Position numbers and translations under genes: made by a program
The notes under the pieces: model-generated
The model's input: only the letters and a program-made list of their open reading frames with translations
Database searches by the model: none
Told to the model about the DNA's origin: nothing
Shown here: positions 684-8,558 of the stretch, in pieces
Layout: every line of letters starts with the position of its first letter
Numbering within the stretch: the first letter of the stretch is position 1
Assembly (NCBI RefSeq): GCF_014652275.1
Contig: NZ_BMYM01000001.1
Location: 620,001-684,000, forward strand
Direction: 5' to 3'
Source: Parahalioglobus pacificus
GTDB lineage: Bacteria; Pseudomonadota; Gammaproteobacteria; Pseudomonadales; Halieaceae
DNA: 64,000 bases

Positions 684-1739
684 TTACTTCGCGCCCTCAG
701 CGGCATCAAACGTGACCTTATGTTTGATCTCGACACGCACCGGCAAGGCATAGCCTGGGGACACCTGCACGTGCCCGGGTGCATTGCAGCTGATGGTTTG
801 GCCGTCAGGTAGCTGTAGGCTAACCAGCGAATGAGCACCCCTGAAATCCACGCTGGAAACCACCAGCTTGCAATTACTGGTTGCATCCACAATCACGTCA
901 TCGGGTCGCAGCAACACCTCCAGTTCACGGGATGACGGCAACTGCCCTAGCGCGCTGGCGAGTTCTGTGACAGGTGTTTTGGCACCGCCGGTACTATCGG
1001 TGCTAACGCGCAGTAATGTGCCCTGTCCGATGAAGCCAGCAACGAAACGTGTTCGTGGTTGGTGATACAACTCGTAGGGGGATGCGACCTGCTCGACGTT
1101 GCCGTCATTCATCACCGCCACTGTATCTGCCATGGTGAGAGCTTCCTGCTGATCGTGTGTCACTAATACCGCGGTCACGTTGCTTTCTTTCAGAAGTTGC
1201 GTCACTTCCAGCGCCAGCTGTTCACGAAGGCTGGTATCCAGACTGGAAAACGGCTCATCCAGTAACAGGATGTCGGGTGAGGGCGCCAACGCACGGGCAA
1301 GGGCGACCCGCTGCTGCTGCCCACCGGAGAGTTCGTGGGGCATTGCGCTCGCCCAGTCCCGCATACTCACCAGCTCCAGAAGTCTTTCGACGGTGGTCTG
1401 GCGATCGTTTGCATTCAGTGCCTGTAGTCCGAAAGCGATATTGCGACTGACACTCAGATGGGGAAAGAGGGCAAAGTCCTGAAACACCATGCCAATGCGA
1501 CGCTGTTCGGGAGCTACCTGCAGCGCGGGGCTGCTGACCAATGTCTCACCCACTTCGATAGTGCCTTCACTGATGGATTGGAAGCCACTGATCGCGCGCA
1601 GTAAAGATGTTTTGCCGCAACCGGAGGGGCCCAGCAGGCAACCTATCTCGCCCGCTTCAAGGCGCAGACTGGCGCCCTGCACGGCGGTAACGTCGCCATA
1701 GCAGACGCTGGCTTTATCGATACGCAGCGACTTACCCAT
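684..1739 (-). CDS. fbpC: Ferric iron ABC transporter ATP-binding protein (FbpC-like)
   Basis: Cytoplasmic ATPase of an FbpABC-type importer. The 351-residue protein has a Walker A motif (GPSGCGKTS, about residue 38), the ABC signature LSGGQQQR, Walker B DILLLDEP and a switch His (VTHDQ), followed by a C-terminal TOBE-like regulatory domain of about 110 residues. This is the normal layout and length for FbpC/PotA-type subunits. Its start overlaps the end of the permease gene by 8 bp, so translation is probably coupled. Iron rather than polyamine or sulfate is inferred from the FbpA partner and the Fur-like site ahead of the operon. It could still serve another anion or metal, but iron is the simplest reading. 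Confidence 0.9.
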   Translation of the reverse strand: MGKSLRIDKASVCYGDVTAVQGASLRLEAGEIGCLLGPSGCGKTSLLRAISGFQSISEGTIEVGETLVSSPALQVAPEQRRIGMVFQDFALFPHLSVSRNIAFGLQALNANDRQTTVERLLELVSMRDWASAMPHELSGGQQQRVALARALAPSPDILLLDEPFSSLDTSLREQLALEVTQLLKESNVTAVLVTHDQQEALTMADTVAVMNDGNVEQVASPYELYHQPRTRFVAGFIGQGTLLRVSTDSTGGAKTPVTELASALGQLPSSRELEVLLRPDDVIVDATSNCKLVVSSVDFRGAHSLVSLQLPDGQTISCNAPGHVQVSPGYALPVRVEIKHKVTFDAAEGAK

Positions 1740-3414
1740 GCTGCTTTTCCCCCTCGGCGATAGCTCTAATGAGCAGGATGACCGGAATCAAACCAATGAT
1801 AACAATGGCGAGCGCCGGCAGCGCGGCGTCTGTGAGGCGCTCGTCAGAAGCCAGCTCATACGTGCGTACGGCCAGCGTATTAAAGTTGAATGGGCGCAGT
1901 ATTAAGGTTGCAGGCAGTTCTTTCAGTACATCCACGAATACCAACAGAAGTGCGGTGAGCAGGCTGCCTCGCAGTATGGGTAGGTGCACCCGCCGCAGCG
2001 TGGTACCTGCGCTTGCACCCAGAGTGCGTGCGGCGTCGTCCAGCGTTGGCTTTACCCGGGATAGCCCCGATTCAACACTTTGGAGGGAAACCGAGAGGAA
2101 CCGCACGGCATAGGCAAACACCAGTGCGAGCAGGGTGCCAGAGAGAAGCAGCCCGGTGCTGGTGTCGAACCATTCCCTGGCCAGCGCATCGACCCGATTA
2201 TCCAGCCAGGCCAGTGGAATGAGCACACCTACCGCAATGACCATGCCGGGGACGGCATACCCCAGGGCTGCAAGGCGCACCGCCGAGCGCTCTATCAGAC
2301 CCGGTGAAAGACGCTGGCCGTAAGCCAATAGCAGCGACAAGCCCAAACACACCACGGCGGTGATGCTGGCCAGCGAGAAACTGTTCCACACCAGTTGCAG
2401 GAACTGATCATCCCAGGCACCGCGCCAGTGATTGATCGCCCACATCAGTAACTGCATGGCCGGTACCAGGAAGCCGGCGAGCACTATCAGAACCAGGGCG
2501 CCGCAGCACAGCGCTGAGCGCCAACCTGACAATTGGGTGCGCTGCGCACGTCGCTGCGATTGGTGGTAACGCATCCGTGCCCGTGAGGTGCGCTCTACAA
2601 CGATCAGTACCAATATAAACAGCATGAGAAGCGCGCTGAGTTGCGCAGCAGTGGTCAGCTCACCCATGCCGTACCAGGTGCGGAAAATGCCGGTGGTAAA
2701 GGCGCTGACACCGAAGTAGTCCACGGTGCCAAAGTCTGCCAGGGTCTCCATCAGTGCCAGGCTCACGCCTGCCACGATAGCCGGGCGCGCCTGGGGCAGG
2801 GCGACCCTGAAGAACACCTGAGTTGGCGAGCGGCCCAGGCTGCGTGCAGCCTCGCGCATGGAGGCCGATTGCTCCATGAATGCAACCCTGGCAAGCAGGT
2901 ACACGTAGGGATACAACACCAGTGACAGCATTGCGATGGCGCCGCCCAAAGAGCGAATCTGTGGGAAGTAGTAGTCGCCATAGCCCCAGCCGAAGTTGTC
3001 GCGGAGCGCGCTTTGCACAGGTCCGCTGAAGTCCAGTAAGCCCGTATAGGTGTAGGCGATGATGTAGGCTGGCATCGCCATCGGTAACAGTAGCGCCCAA
3101 ACCAGCGCACTGCGCCCTGGGAATTGGTAGGCCGTGGTTAGCCAGGCGGCACCGACACCCAATACGGCCGTCCCTGCGCCCACACCCAGCATGAGCAGAG
3201 CAGATGTGCCCAGGTAATCGACGATAACTGTGTCCAGCAGGTGTCGCCAGGTGTCTGAAAAGGGAAGGGCCAGTGAGGCCGCGATGATGATGATCGGCAG
3301 CATTAATAATGCGGCCGTGATAACCAGCATCACCGGCCATCGGGAAAACCCGACCCCGGCTGTGCTGCCGGGGTTAGTGGATAGTGCCTGGAATAGTGTC
3401 TGGATTAACGCCAA
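1732..3414 (-). CDS. fbpB: Ferric iron ABC transporter permease (FbpB-like)
   Basis: Inner-membrane permease of the iron importer, 560 residues, a fused double permease with about 12 hydrophobic segments. Each half carries an EAA-type loop that contacts the ATPase (one near MREAARSLGRSP, one near DDAARTLGAS). The listed start is a TTG that overlaps the fbpA stop by 10 bp. An ATG at 3330 (MLVITAALL...) would begin directly before the first membrane helix and is a reasonable alternative. It sits between fbpA and fbpC, as usual for this family. Confidence 0.9.
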   Translation of the reverse strand: MALIQTLFQALSTNPGSTAGVGFSRWPVMLVITAALLMLPIIIIAASLALPFSDTWRHLLDTVIVDYLGTSALLMLGVGAGTAVLGVGAAWLTTAYQFPGRSALVWALLLPMAMPAYIIAYTYTGLLDFSGPVQSALRDNFGWGYGDYYFPQIRSLGGAIAMLSLVLYPYVYLLARVAFMEQSASMREAARSLGRSPTQVFFRVALPQARPAIVAGVSLALMETLADFGTVDYFGVSAFTTGIFRTWYGMGELTTAAQLSALLMLFILVLIVVERTSRARMRYHQSQRRAQRTQLSGWRSALCCGALVLIVLAGFLVPAMQLLMWAINHWRGAWDDQFLQLVWNSFSLASITAVVCLGLSLLLAYGQRLSPGLIERSAVRLAALGYAVPGMVIAVGVLIPLAWLDNRVDALAREWFDTSTGLLLSGTLLALVFAYAVRFLSVSLQSVESGLSRVKPTLDDAARTLGASAGTTLRRVHLPILRGSLLTALLLVFVDVLKELPATLILRPFNFNTLAVRTYELASDERLTDAALPALAIVIIGLIPVILLIRAIAEGEKQHG

Positions 3415-4433
3415 CCGGCCCGGTCCATCACCTTGACGGCATCAGCATTGAGGCGGCCCAGTTCTGAAACCGGTACTTCGTCGGCCTTGAATGTGCCCCA
3501 GGCGGCGAGAACCTCGCTGACCGGGATGCCATCACGCACTGGGTACTCATTGTTGGTTTCCGCGTACCAGCGCTGACTTTCGTCATTGGCCAGGAACTCG
3601 ATCAGCTTTACGGCATTCGCCGTATTCTTCGCAGACTTAGTGACGCCGGCTCCGGACACATTGACATGGGTGCCGCGACCGTCCTGGTTGGGCCAAAAGA
3701 TACCAACCTTGGCCGCTGCTGCCTGCTGCTCAGCATCACCGGAATTGATCATGCCGCCTAGGTAGTAACTGTTGACGATGGCCACGTCACACTGGCCTGC
3801 CGCCACAGCCTTGATCTGATCCCTGTCTCCGCCCTGTGGGGGGCGGGCAAAGTTAGCCACCAAACCTGTTGCAAAACTCTCAGCAGCGGCTTCGCCTTCG
3901 GTGGCGATCATACCGGCGATCAGTGACTGATTGTAAATGTTGCCGGAGGAGCGGATGCAGACTTTGCCCTCCCATGTGCTGTCGGTGAGCGCTTCGTAGG
4001 TGCTGAGCTCCGCGGGATCGACCCGATCTTTAGCGTACACGATGGCGCGGGCGCGCACGCTCAGTGCATACCACTGCCCGTCAGGGTCCCGCAGGTGGCC
4101 GGGGACTTCCGACATGAGCAGCTCTGAGCTGACGCTTTGCAGCACACCGGCTTCCTCAGCGCGGTAAAGGCGCCCGGCATCGACGGTTAGCAGGATGTCG
4201 GCCGGGGAGTTCATACCCTCACTGCGCAAACGCGTCAGTAGGGCATCGCCCTTGCCGGTGACCAGATTGATCTTGGTACCGGTTTGCTCGCTGAAACGGT
4301 CCAGCAAAGGCTTGATTAACGCTTCCTGGCGCGAGGAGTACACATTGACCTCGGCTGCGAGTGCGGCATTGCAGATGACGCCAGTCAGGGCAGTGAGGGC
4401 AGTGCCCAAAATGCGAATCAGTTGGGTTGGCAT
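3405..4433 (-). CDS. fbpA: Ferric iron-binding periplasmic protein (FbpA-like)
   Basis: Periplasmic solute-binding protein that delivers Fe3+ to the FbpBC permease. From ATG 4433 the product is 342 residues: a signal peptide (MPTQLIRILGTALTALTGVI to about ALAA), then mature EVNVYSSRQ, the classic start of this family. The tandem Tyr pair in NSYYLGG corresponds to the iron-ligand tyrosines of FbpA. The frame stays open upstream to 4658, but that extension is not signal-peptide-like and would run through the Fur-like site, so 4433 is preferred. First gene of fbpA-fbpB-fbpC. Confidence 0.92.
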   Translation of the reverse strand: MPTQLIRILGTALTALTGVICNAALAAEVNVYSSRQEALIKPLLDRFSEQTGTKINLVTGKGDALLTRLRSEGMNSPADILLTVDAGRLYRAEEAGVLQSVSSELLMSEVPGHLRDPDGQWYALSVRARAIVYAKDRVDPAELSTYEALTDSTWEGKVCIRSSGNIYNQSLIAGMIATEGEAAAESFATGLVANFARPPQGGDRDQIKAVAAGQCDVAIVNSYYLGGMINSGDAEQQAAAAKVGIFWPNQDGRGTHVNVSGAGVTKSAKNTANAVKLIEFLANDESQRWYAETNNEYPVRDGIPVSEVLAAWGTFKADEVPVSELGRLNADAVKVMDRAGWR

Positions 4434-4458
4434 GGCTTCGTCCGATTCAGGTTGAAAG

Positions 4459-4481
4459 GAATAGTTATTATTCTCAATTAG
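4459..4481 (-). promoter_or_regulatory. Putative Fur box upstream of fbpA
   Basis: On the minus strand the sequence reads TTGAGAATAATAACTATT, close to the AATGAGAATNATTNTCATT-like Fur consensus. It lies about 26-48 bp before the fbpA start, which is where an iron repressor would block a promoter. The call rests on consensus similarity only. Confidence 0.6.
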
Positions 4482-4657
4482 CGGGTTATAGCAACCGCAA
4501 TGATATACGCTGTGTCTACGCACCGCGACGGAATTGTCTCTATCTAGGCGCTCCCGCAGAGCCTCTTTCACCACGCGCGACGTGTGCGAGTCAGACTGGG
4601 TTAGCGGCACGTCGCGCAGCCATACGGTAAACTCACTGAAAATCTCATTGAACAGCA

Positions 4658-5392
4658 ATGCATATGATCGAATTCGCTAAAGGGGTTTCAGCAGCGGCGT
4701 TGATGCTGTCACTCACCGCCTGCTCGCCCGATCCGGTATTACCCGCTGGAACTTGTGCAAACGCTTTGACGGATGATGAGCAGCGCGCCGGCTGGACATT
4801 GCTGTTCGATGGGCAGTCACTGGCGCAGTGGCGTACCTTCGGCAAAGACGAAGTGGATGACGGCTGGGCTATCGAGGGAGGCTGCCTGACTCGAGTGGGC
4901 TGGGCGGGTGACTTGATCACCCGGCAGCAATACAGTGATTTTGAGCTGAAGCTGGAGTGGCGGATTTCCGACGCGGGAAATAGCGGTATCTTTATTCGGG
5001 GTGATGAGTCTGGCGATGCCATTCATGAAACTGCGATGGAGATGCAGGTACTGGACAACGCAGGCCACTGGGACAGGCACGACCCCACCCACCGGGCGGG
5101 GGCCTACTACGATATGATTGCGCCGGCCGAGGATACCAGTCAGCCCGTGGGCACATGGAATGCCGTGCACATCATTGCGCGTGGCCCTTATGTAGAGTTC
5201 TGGCTCAATGGCCAGCAGACCGCTGCATTTGAGCAGGGTAGCGAGGCCTGGCTGGCGCTCTACCAGCAAAGCAAGTTTGCGGACAGGCCTGCCTATGGCT
5301 CATTGCTGAAAGGCCACATCGGCTTGCAGGACCACTGGGATAAGGTCTGGTACCGGAATATTCGCCTGCTGGATACCTCGGCTGGCGAGTAA
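4658..5392 (+). CDS. DUF1080 (3-keto-disaccharide hydrolase-like) lipoprotein
   Basis: A 244-residue lipoprotein with a short signal ending in the lipobox LTAC (Cys about 22), then one DUF1080 domain. Recognisable segments are GWTLLFDGQSLAQWR near the N-terminus, GGCLTR, DFELKLEWRIS and a C-terminal HIGLQDHW. The fold is a concanavalin-like beta sandwich related to 3-keto-disaccharide hydrolases and lectin-like domains. It is probably envelope-anchored and acts on or binds a carbohydrate, but the substrate is unknown. A second ATG two codons in (4664) is an equally good start. It is divergent from fbpA and stands alone. Confidence 0.85.
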   Translation: MHMIEFAKGVSAAALMLSLTACSPDPVLPAGTCANALTDDEQRAGWTLLFDGQSLAQWRTFGKDEVDDGWAIEGGCLTRVGWAGDLITRQQYSDFELKLEWRISDAGNSGIFIRGDESGDAIHETAMEMQVLDNAGHWDRHDPTHRAGAYYDMIAPAEDTSQPVGTWNAVHIIARGPYVEFWLNGQQTAAFEQGSEAWLALYQQSKFADRPAYGSLLKGHIGLQDHWDKVWYRNIRLLDTSAGE

Positions 5393-5445: not shown

Positions 5446-6300
5446 TCAGGGCTTGTTGAGATCCCAGTCGTATTCGTACCGCACTTTGCCGGCCCAGCCG
5501 CGTACTTCCTCAGCTGAACCTTCGGGCGCATAATCGGCAATCCAGGACAGCACCGCGGCTTTGCTATCACCAAAGTCCTCGTCAAACCATTTGAAAATGG
5601 TGGACACGGTGATGGCCTCGTCTTCAATAGTGAGACCTCGCGGGTGAGCGAGGAAAGCGCGGGCAGCGCTGTCCATCAGGGCATCCAGATTGTTAGCGGT
5701 AAACGGCACGGCCTGTAGATCGGGGCAGCCGAGGCTGGCGCAATTGACGGCAAAGTGCACCCGCGCATCACGGTACAGCGGGCGAAGAATTCTGTGTTCT
5801 ATGTCGTTCAACGTGAGGGCCACACCATCCACGGTGACCAGTTCGCGATTCCAAGGCCCCAGGCTGAAAAAACCATCCTTGATGTCACGGATGCTGGCAA
5901 CGCCGGGGTTGTCGACAATCAGCGCCACGGTCAGCGCGTTGTAGAGGTTTATCCAGTACGCCTGCTGTTGTTGAGCGGTAAGCCGCAGCACCGGCTGTGA
6001 CGCGAGGTAGTCTACATAGCTCTGCAGCTGTTGACGGTCCGCGCTGGTGACTGCCGCATAGTCGAACAGGTAAATGCCCGAGTCGGTGCTTGTGTTGAGA
6101 TAGCGCGACAGAACGTTGGCCCAGGCGCTGTGATCGAGCGTTATCGTCGCCACATCGGCAGCAGGGCGCCAACGCTCCCAGGCCTCGGATTTGGGCTCGA
6201 ACAGGGCTCTCGCTGGTAAGGCTGTTACCAGCAGGAGTGCAAGCATGATGCAGCAGCTCACCGCTTTGCTGGTGTGGGTGTTGCGACGTCTGCCGTTCAT
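5446..6300 (-). CDS. DUF547 domain-containing exported protein
   Basis: From ATG 6300 the product is 284 residues, with an N-terminal signal (MNGRRRNTHTSKAVSCCIML to about PARA) followed by a DUF547 domain. Family landmarks are AYWINLYNALTV, the IRDIKDGFF segment, LNDIEHRILRP and VHFAVNCASLGCPDL. DUF547 proteins are widespread in bacteria and plants; no enzymatic role is established, although the conserved Asn/Cys/His positions suggest a thiol-type active site. The longer open frame (to 6375) adds residues before the signal peptide and is unlikely. It is convergent with the DUF1080 gene. Confidence 0.85.
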   Translation of the reverse strand: MNGRRRNTHTSKAVSCCIMLALLLVTALPARALFEPKSEAWERWRPAADVATITLDHSAWANVLSRYLNTSTDSGIYLFDYAAVTSADRQQLQSYVDYLASQPVLRLTAQQQQAYWINLYNALTVALIVDNPGVASIRDIKDGFFSLGPWNRELVTVDGVALTLNDIEHRILRPLYRDARVHFAVNCASLGCPDLQAVPFTANNLDALMDSAARAFLAHPRGLTIEDEAITVSTIFKWFDEDFGDSKAAVLSWIADYAPEGSAEEVRGWAGKVRYEYDWDLNKP

Positions 6301-6627: not shown

Positions 6628-8361
6628 TTAAACACGCTCTCCGTCGTTTTGAGGCATTAATGCTCCAACAAGAAAAGCGTCATCTAAATCCGCCACGCTT
6701 ATGTCCGTATCTCTTAAGTTCGCGCCGCCTAGGTAGGTGCCACTAAAATTTGCCCCGCTTAGTTTGGCGCCAGCGAGATTGACGCCACTGAGATTTGCAT
6801 CGCTCAAGTCGGCGAACATCAGGTTGGCGTCACGCAGGTCTGCGCTGCTGAAGTTGGCTCCAATGAGTTTGGCAAAGCCTAGATTGGCGCCGCTGAGCTG
6901 GGCACCACTGAAATTCGCTTTAACGAGAGTCGCGTTGTTTAGATCAGCACTTGTGAGGCTGCCACCCGATAAGTTGCAGCTACACAGGTTGGCAGATGCC
7001 AAGTCCGCACTCGACAAGTCTATGCCCTTTAAGTCCGCCTCTTCGAGTGTAAGGCCCTTCAGGGATACGCCATCCTCGCACAGGTCCTGTAACGCGAGGA
7101 ATCTGGCATTACTCGTTTTAACGTGAGCCGCGTGATCGATAGTGCTCCAAGCGTGGTAATGGAACTGCTTTTTACGCTCCGGTGTCTCACGTAGGTACAA
7201 AAAAAGCGCAAGTAATAAACTTAAAGGATTAGCAAAAATGGCCACCGATCGCATCTCAGGAAAGACGAAAGACAGCGATATGAGTCCAACGCCGATGACA
7301 GCCCAGAGTCCTACAAGGGTGGAAAATCGAACAGAGTAAAACCAGTGAGTAAACCTGTTCTCACTCCTTGGACGCGGAGAGCTCGCCGATGATTCCTTAT
7401 CGCGATTTTGGCTAGCGTATGGGATTTTTGAATCAGTTAATTTGGGGGCGCTAGCTGAACTGGCGGTGGTGCCGGGAGCATCGTGCGCGCCATCAAGCAT
7501 CAGCGTAATTACCTGCTCAATCGTTTCCGACCATGCGTCGGCTATATCCTTAGACCACGCTGTTCCCAAGAATCTTTCAAGCGTGGCCAGTAGGGCTTCT
7601 CCCACTAATGGGTAGCTTTCTGCGGTCGCACCGTATGCGATATGTTTCTTGCCCAGTGGCAGCAGTATTTTCTCGATCTCACCAGGTTGCCGTATATTCT
7701 CTACCAAGAGAACGAGGGCAGCATGAAGCTTTTTCCCCTGCATTTTGATGTCAACGCTCTCAAACAAGGGGCGAAGATGTGAGTTTCGCCGAAAGAGTTC
7801 GTTGTAAAACGCCTCCGTGAACGCTTCGTAATCTTCACCTATTTGAGCGAAGCTTACCTGCACTAACTGTGCGGTATCGGCGCTGCCGGAATTGCTTACG
7901 TACTCATATGACGTAGGCATTACGTTGGTTATTTGTTCGGGTACAGCGATACCCGCACCACGGAGCATAGTTGCGGTAACGTCCCTAAATGTATTTTCCC
8001 AAGCCCGGCTGAGTTCAGGTGTCCAGCGATCACCGAGAAAGAGTTGCAACGTTGCGGTGATACTCTTCCCAACCTTAGGGAAAGCCTCGGGAGTGGCGCC
8101 ATAACCGACGTGTTTTTCACCCAGAGGTAGCAGAACTCTTTCAAGCTCTTCGGGGTGGCGTAAGTTCTCAACAAGTAAAACGAGCGCGGCGTAGAGCTTG
8201 CTACCTTGCCGGTCCATGTCTGTATTTGAAAAAAGCGGCTCGAGCTCGGGGTAATCCTTGAACAAGCGAGTATAGAATGCGTTAGAGAACTCCGCTTTGT
8301 GAATTTTAACCCTCTCAAAGCTATCTTCGATCAGGTCTATTTCCGCTCTGTCTCTTTGCAA
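6628..8361 (-). CDS. Tandem globin / transmembrane / pentapeptide-repeat protein
   Basis: 577 residues in an unusual order. Globin 1 spans about 5-135 and globin 2 about 165-292. Each has a CD1-type Phe (F44, F200, in PLF), a Gln at the expected distal E7 position (Q52, Q208) and a proximal His in a KH motif (H84, H240), so both could bind heme. A Ser-rich linker (about 293-336) leads to two hydrophobic helices (about 346-367 and 371-390). Residues about 430-566 are pentapeptide repeats of the A(D/N)LxX type, about 25 units, expected to form a right-handed square helix. The only usable start is TTG 8361, which has CAAAGG nine bases upstream; an in-frame TAG lies just above it. It is probably a membrane-anchored heme sensor or gas-binding protein, though no output domain of known enzymatic type is present. 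Confidence 0.85.
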   Translation of the reverse strand: MQRDRAEIDLIEDSFERVKIHKAEFSNAFYTRLFKDYPELEPLFSNTDMDRQGSKLYAALVLLVENLRHPEELERVLLPLGEKHVGYGATPEAFPKVGKSITATLQLFLGDRWTPELSRAWENTFRDVTATMLRGAGIAVPEQITNVMPTSYEYVSNSGSADTAQLVQVSFAQIGEDYEAFTEAFYNELFRRNSHLRPLFESVDIKMQGKKLHAALVLLVENIRQPGEIEKILLPLGKKHIAYGATAESYPLVGEALLATLERFLGTAWSKDIADAWSETIEQVITLMLDGAHDAPGTTASSASAPKLTDSKIPYASQNRDKESSASSPRPRSENRFTHWFYSVRFSTLVGLWAVIGVGLISLSFVFPEMRSVAIFANPLSLLLALFLYLRETPERKKQFHYHAWSTIDHAAHVKTSNARFLALQDLCEDGVSLKGLTLEEADLKGIDLSSADLASANLCSCNLSGGSLTSADLNNATLVKANFSGAQLSGANLGFAKLIGANFSSADLRDANLMFADLSDANLSGVNLAGAKLSGANFSGTYLGGANLRDTDISVADLDDAFLVGALMPQNDGERV

Positions 8362-8558
8362 CGTGGTATACCTTTGTCGTCCTTGAATAGCGATGTTCTA
8401 TCACATAACCGGCATTCACACTTCGTCAGGGTTTTAGTCATTGAATTGGTATTTCTCCTCAAGCTAAATCACGAATGTCTAGTGACGTTGTATTCGTGCC
8501 GGTCATATGCTGGAGATAGAACTCAGTGAAGCATACCTCTAAATTGTTCAAAGTCATC

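Follow-up and report, generated by a model that had tools for sequence, protein, structure and literature searches.

The window, a 64,000-nucleotide stretch of the Parahalioglobus pacificus genome, carries on its minus strand a 577-amino acid ORF that begins with a TTG codon and encodes two globin domains, a predicted two-helix membrane hairpin, a neck and a rod of pentapeptide repeats (Table 1). The coordinates given in an earlier note on this DNA hold, as does its domain order; the strand, absent there, is minus, and the limits of the globins are corrected to approximately residues 1-140 and 158-297. An in-frame stop codon lies 12 codons upstream of the TTG, and the open frame spans 589 codons. 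Between positions 6300 and 9100 no promoter-like match was found (2.3 expected), and the number of FNR-like sites in the window (19 vs 20.2 expected) is not above chance. ABC transporter genes, assigned by Pfam, occupy positions 684-4658 of the minus strand.

Table 1. Features of the double-globin gene and of the ABC transporter genes in the window, with residue numbers of the 577-amino acid protein.
Feature	Position	Strand	Residues	Basis and details
Whole gene	6628..8361	minus	577 aa	Globin-globin-TM hairpin-neck-pentapeptide rod
Possible ribosome-binding site, AAAGG	8371..8375	minus		Read from sequence; 9 nt before TTG
Globin 1	7942..8361	minus	1-140	Pfam, residue table, AlphaFold2; Y30 (B10), F44 (CD1), Q52 (E7), H84 (F8), F94 (G5)
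Globin 2	7471..7890	minus	158-297	Pfam, residue table, AlphaFold2; Tyr (B10), F200 (CD1), Q208 (E7), H240 (F8), Y250 (G5)
Low-confidence linker, probably disordered	7357..7470	minus	298-335	pLDDT 28-46, blocks 301-340
Predicted two-helix membrane hairpin	7192..7326	minus	346-390	Hydropathy; helices in both AlphaFold2 models
Neck, two helices	7072..7191	minus	391-430	ERKKQFHYHAWSTID...SNARFLALQDL; tblastn and alignments; common to cyanobacterial membrane pentapeptide proteins
Pentapeptide-repeat beta-helix (rod), 27 units	6652..7071	minus	431-570	Pfam, AlphaFold2, Foldseek, conservation; F496 and F516
ABC transporter ATPase	684-1739	minus		Pfam
ABC transporter permease	1732-3414	minus		Pfam
ABC transporter solute-binding protein	3405-4658	minus		Pfam

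When the whole protein is searched against Pfam, the Globin family (PF00042) matches two stretches (E=5.8e-29; 101.4 bits for both, against a cut-off of 22) and the Pentapeptide family matches four (E=1.4e-30). The earlier note had proposed searching the globin parts separately, and each of them passes the PF00042 cut-off by itself (60.3 and 48.7 bits). The two are 48% identical over 127 residues in a BLAST comparison (E=2e-45), which indicates an internal duplication, and 43% identical in a wider alignment. By sequence, globin 1 matches the solved heme globin 3s1i, Hell's Gate globin I (E=9.1e-17), and the best PDB match of globin 2 is 3wfw, also a solved heme globin (E=4.3e-18). Foldseek aligns one of the two globin parts with 3s1i at TMt 0.94 and rmsd 1.1, and the AlphaFold2 model of the globins has pLDDT values of 77-93 in ten-residue blocks. 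With the position names used for Vitreoscilla hemoglobin and flavohemoglobin mapped by alignment, Tyr B10, Phe CD1, Gln E7, Leu E11 and His F8 are present in each of the two domains. The residue table thus upholds the earlier assignment of H84, H240, the CD1 Phe and the E7 Gln in the two domains, which probably bind heme. Protoglobin (PF11563) gave no match at E up to 0.1, and the globin models matched were PF00042 and, below its cut-off, PF01152. Judged by sequence, the window globins belong to the F-type, whereas classical globin-coupled sensors have S-type globins.

Downstream of the linker, hydropathy peaks at residues 349-367 and 372-390 coincide with AlphaFold2 helices at 346-366 and 368-390 (block pLDDT 55-74, a moderate confidence), in agreement with the two membrane helices predicted previously. 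A hydrophobic hairpin is present in all six members of the protein group that were scanned. Lys and Arg outnumber Asp and Glu by 6 to 3 before the hairpin (320-345) and by 4 to 3 after it (390-412), around a very short loop. Following the positive-inside rule, these flanking charges would place the globins and the rod in the cytoplasm, with the bias after the hairpin being slight. In the neck, the ID/SxAR residues are kept in all eight globin-bearing members, with the T of TID missing in one of them (locus L082). A 131-amino acid query covering the hairpin, neck and rod start retrieves 11 cyanobacterial plasmid records by tblastn (35.9-49.3% identity, four covering at least 80% of the query), the best with E=2e-15 and 39.9% identity over 97% of the query. 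Nine of the 11 genes are annotated as pentapeptide repeat-containing and two as hypothetical. No globin was seen by eye in the Leptolyngbya (L031) and Nostoc (L032) proteins, nor by Pfam in the former. On the strength of these matches, hairpin, neck and rod make up an existing module that is also found without a globin, notably in cyanobacteria.

The rod comprises 27 pentapeptide units, close to the approximately 25 repeats counted at first, and 25 of them satisfy a simple consensus criterion. AlphaFold2 forms a beta-helix at about residues 431-570 (block pLDDT 83-97), and Foldseek matches it to NP275-NP276 (2j8k; TMt 0.75, rmsd 1.4). With this number of units and a beta-helix from both methods, the rod is of the kind that the accessible text of PMC8145042 defines as a pentapeptide-repeat protein, namely at least eight contiguous repeats in a quadrilateral beta-helix. 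Twenty of the 135 rod positions examined (432-566) are invariant in all eight globin-bearing members, a count that includes one split copy, leaves out three globin-less proteins and draws five of its eight members from close one-globin sequences. Eight of these 20 are at the i position, whose residues point inward, and all are Leu. F496 and F516 are likewise invariant in 8/8 members; both are at the i+2 position, from which side chains point outward in known pentapeptide structures, and they lie four units, or one coil, apart on one face.

A structure prediction of the full chain, which had also been proposed, yields two globins, two helices, the neck helices and the beta-helix. This AlphaFold2 model was built from 12 sequences and has a mean pLDDT of 79.6 and a pTM of 0.38; the individual domains are well modelled, but their mutual arrangement is uncertain. 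A separate model, built from five sequences for the hairpin and rod, has a pLDDT of 80.8 and a pTM of 0.67.

Contrary to the impression that the domain order is unique, other proteins with globin, hairpin and rod were found. The two-globin layout occurs in one more genome, a Flavobacteriales MAG (G1222), in which locus L082 (3543-5315, minus strand) encodes a 591-amino acid protein in which Pfam recognises a pair of globins (E=1e-31, two stretches) and pentapeptide repeats (E=2.1e-23); two hydrophobic peaks and the neck are also present. A form with one globin, hairpin and rod is present in five further genomes by Pfam, three of Enterovibrio plus G072 and G225, both relatives of the host. In total, no fewer than two genomes carry the order with two globins, and another five the version with one. 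The MAG carries a second locus (L038, 204-1541) where a globin and a hairpin-rod part share one frame that a single TAA interrupts, and an ATG in that frame follows within a few codons; the split may mean that one gene has undergone fission, that two genes form a unit or that the assembly is in error. The recurring globins show 33-46% identity to globin 1, apart from the second L082 globin, for which the value is 35%.

Some of these copies came from a pattern scan of genome contigs with two short peptides, a narrow approach that will miss members, in which 82 stretches matched and 10 loci were confirmed: the three Enterovibrio proteins, L038, three Aquimarina tandem globins and three single globins. 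The Aquimarina proteins (L042, L043 and L044) are about 290 amino acids long, end in KPWWK[FI]W and have neither hairpin nor rod. Among 398 genomes of the phylum, 28 matched the A5 model at 1e-18, a strict cut-off that may hide distant members, and the listed matches outside the host cover only the globin part (to position 156 of 252). At 1e-20, the MAG was the only one of 246 genomes of its order to match. Viral contigs gave no match, and 158 plasmid records match the 408-amino acid N-terminal part, none over 80% of it. No neighbour gene is common to the window, G072, G225, the MAG and Enterovibrio, as inspected by eye outside the window; neighbours are held in common only between two Enterovibrio loci. 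Because no neighbour recurs across the different lineages inspected, a partner cannot be named from gene context.

The relatives of the window globins point to a sensory role. In a tree of 43 rows, a clade of 15 rows (support 100/98) excludes the sampled flavohemoglobins and single-domain globins and holds the two window globins, both L082 globins, L038, the five one-globin copies, a globin from a Nostoc plasmid and four globins of globin-PAS-HAMP-MCP proteins. The same grouping, with 13 rows (97/99), appeared in an earlier tree of 39 rows (the two window domains, 34 domains from 32 loci and three PDB stretches, with repeat retrievals of one region and L027, L028, L044 and L046 left out), to which four rows were added for the larger tree. 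Both trees are weakened by a long-branch warning. The four proteins of the last kind (L048, L051, L052 and L004) come from the host's bacterial family, and in all of them Pfam detects a PF00042 globin fused to PAS, HAMP and MCP domains; one of their genes (L048) lies between those for CheW and CheR. The clade therefore indicates that close kin of the window globins serve as sensor inputs. A CheD-like frame follows CheR at this locus by eye, and its 124-amino acid piece has no Pfam match. The two globins of the window group together (98/78 and 97/86; 85/83 in a tree of 13 of the 43 rows, where the grouping is unstarred). Topology tests nevertheless reject neither a pairing of the two first globins nor one of the two second globins (p-AU 0.105 and 0.092), and a duplication shared with the MAG copy is likewise compatible with the data (p-AU 0.09-0.14). 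Two other globin-PAS-HAMP proteins that were expected in the clade, L058 and L069, which come from a family of the same class, instead group with single-domain globins in the 43-row tree, so that fusions of this kind may have more than one origin. Their open frames of 927 and 950 amino acids have a C-terminus beyond the locus and lie beside CheW-like genes (by eye). The Nostoc plasmid globin (L033, 2161-3432) is near an nrtS nitrate/nitrite transporter gene.

The interpretation we favour, at about even confidence, is that the protein is a membrane-anchored heme sensor of O2 or NO with F-type globins that signals through docking of a partner on its rod. Under this proposal, for which we infer heme binding, the ligand, the topology and the signal transfer, the two cytoplasm-facing heme globins would bind O2 or NO while the hairpin anchors the protein in the inner membrane. 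The helical neck would relay the ligand state, or a ligand-driven rearrangement of a dimer, to the beta-helix, whose conserved surface, marked by the stacked Phe pair, might then capture or release a partner protein at the membrane. A membrane gas sensor that acts through protein contact had been suggested in the earlier note, and that suggestion gains from the recurrence of the layout in two phyla and from the invariant Phe pair on the rod surface. Points against the sensor reading are the lack of a recurring neighbour gene, of FNR-like sites above chance and of a promoter-like match, and a heme pocket that varies between copies.

The main rival to this sensor reading is membrane O2 storage or NO removal, in which an O2-handling or NO-detoxifying globin is tethered to the membrane and the rod is only a scaffold beside an oxidase or reductase. 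Membrane tethering has been proposed for Vitreoscilla hemoglobin, the Tyr B10, Gln E7 and His F8 set is common to solved O2-binding bacterial hemoglobins, and two hemes would raise the capacity. In addition, the 99.98%-complete host genome gave no PF00042 match beyond these two domains, and hence no flavohemoglobin was found there. However, a profile search of the 577-amino acid protein finds no C-terminal FAD/NAD reductase domain, and the flavohemoglobin model reaches 117.3 bits against a cut-off of 432, with only its globin part matched. In the 39-row alignment, the H23 Glu present in 8/8 flavohemoglobin rows is Ala in both window globins, although it is missing from every non-flavohemoglobin row that reaches the position, single-domain globins included, and so its absence cannot tell a sensor from an O2 store. 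The heme pocket is also not kept uniformly: position E7 is Met in 5/5 one-globin copies, and the second L082 globin has Phe B10, Glu H23 and, in place of the proximal His, Tyr F8. Heme binding by that globin is doubtful given its B10 and F8 residues, whereas the first L082 globin keeps the residues checked. On balance, we regard storage or removal as rather unlikely.

A recent, weakly constrained fusion in the host genome without a dedicated function would account for the narrow local distribution. The host's family was covered by 140 genomes, its own among them; within it the hairpin-neck module is confined to the host and G072, and a match over both globins and the hairpin to the host. The module is found in four of 390 genomes of the order, of which the host, G072 and G225 carry globins and G168 has a hairpin-neck protein without one, and among 369 genomes of the class the host's own copy is the only one. 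Moreover, the GC3 of the double-globin gene is 0.533, below the range of 0.599-0.727 for the 15 other ORFs measured; this value, together with the patchy distribution, suggests horizontal acquisition. Nevertheless, the recurrence of the layout in Enterovibrio, in a relative from the same order and in a Bacteroidota MAG, with invariant neck and rod residues, speaks against an accident, which we consider improbable.

The possibility of a DNA-mimicking rod, or of a heme-gated gyrase inhibitor of the Qnr/MfpA kind, draws on Foldseek and phmmer matches to MfpA and Qnr structures and on the rod net charge of -10 in this copy, but is very improbable given charges of 0 and -3 in the two MAG copies, -6 in L039 and -7 in G072, the probable membrane location of the protein, and scores far below cut-off for the Qnr models (26-44 bits vs 240-500) and for MfpA (42.3 vs 360). 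The charge values cover five of the eight globin-bearing members, in addition to two globin-less proteins. With a net charge that varies in this manner, no conserved DNA-like surface is expected, and we rejected the DNA mimicry that had initially been offered for the rod. The invariant F496 and F516 and the range of charges from -10 to 0 favour a docking surface instead.

Extending the docking-sensor proposal, F-type globins that control a membrane-bound pentapeptide docking rod could represent a heme-based type of signalling protein that is new as a class, occurs in at least two phyla, has spread horizontally and uses F496/F516 as the partner site; we advance this broader claim only tentatively. 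If true, the pentapeptide beta-helix would serve as an output module under gas control, and the known repertoire of F-type globins would gain anchoring in the membrane and an output that docks a partner without catalysis. As the earlier note had anticipated, no described family with this exact architecture, and no description of a globin joined to pentapeptide repeats, was found among the titles and abstract openings listed from the literature searched, a body that most subscription journals and preprints fall outside. The combination would be a sensor built on heme globins but with a new kind of output; sensing by such globins has been proposed before, and membrane pentapeptide proteins are known.

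Diguanylate cyclase outputs occur in classical globin-coupled sensors. These S-type proteins, represented by HemAT in the portion of PMC1457004 available, similarly have an N-terminal globin fused to a further part, but the window protein lacks a Protoglobin match and has the hairpin and pentapeptide rod instead. SyNOS, which is among the Foldseek matches, also fuses an N-terminal globin to another module, in this case a catalytic NOS output (PMC6104048, in part). The chemoreceptors L048, L051, L052 and L004 belong to the same globin clade and have the sensor in the same N-terminal position, but with one globin, a PAS-HAMP-MCP output and no rod found by Pfam. In HGbRL from Methylacidiphilum infernorum (3wfw), a related N-terminal globin is joined to a non-flavin output, a Roadblock/LC7 domain. 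As far as the available part of PMC4476040 describes it, HGbRL differs in having one globin and no membrane hairpin, and it falls outside the clade in both trees, a weak placement. Its authors call it a putative globin-coupled sensor, and sensing by such globins has thus already been proposed.

Functions of most pentapeptide-repeat proteins remain unknown according to the accessible text of PMC8145042, and the tie to a globin domain whose ligand can be measured turns the function of this rod into a testable question. The best NCBIfam pentapeptide models for the rod are Alr5209 and HetL, although their scores (84.2 and 76.8 bits) are below the family cut-offs of 125 and 260. HglK of Anabaena/Nostoc, which has a role in heterocyst glycolipid localisation, likewise places membrane helices before a pentapeptide-repeat region and makes membrane pentapeptide proteins a known type; it differs in its four TM regions and 36 repeats, with no globin mentioned in the same part of that source. 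Closer in layout are the cyanobacterial proteins L031 and L032, which share one or two hydrophobic helices, the neck motif and the start of the rod, but have no globin and, by eye, a different C-terminus of the rod.
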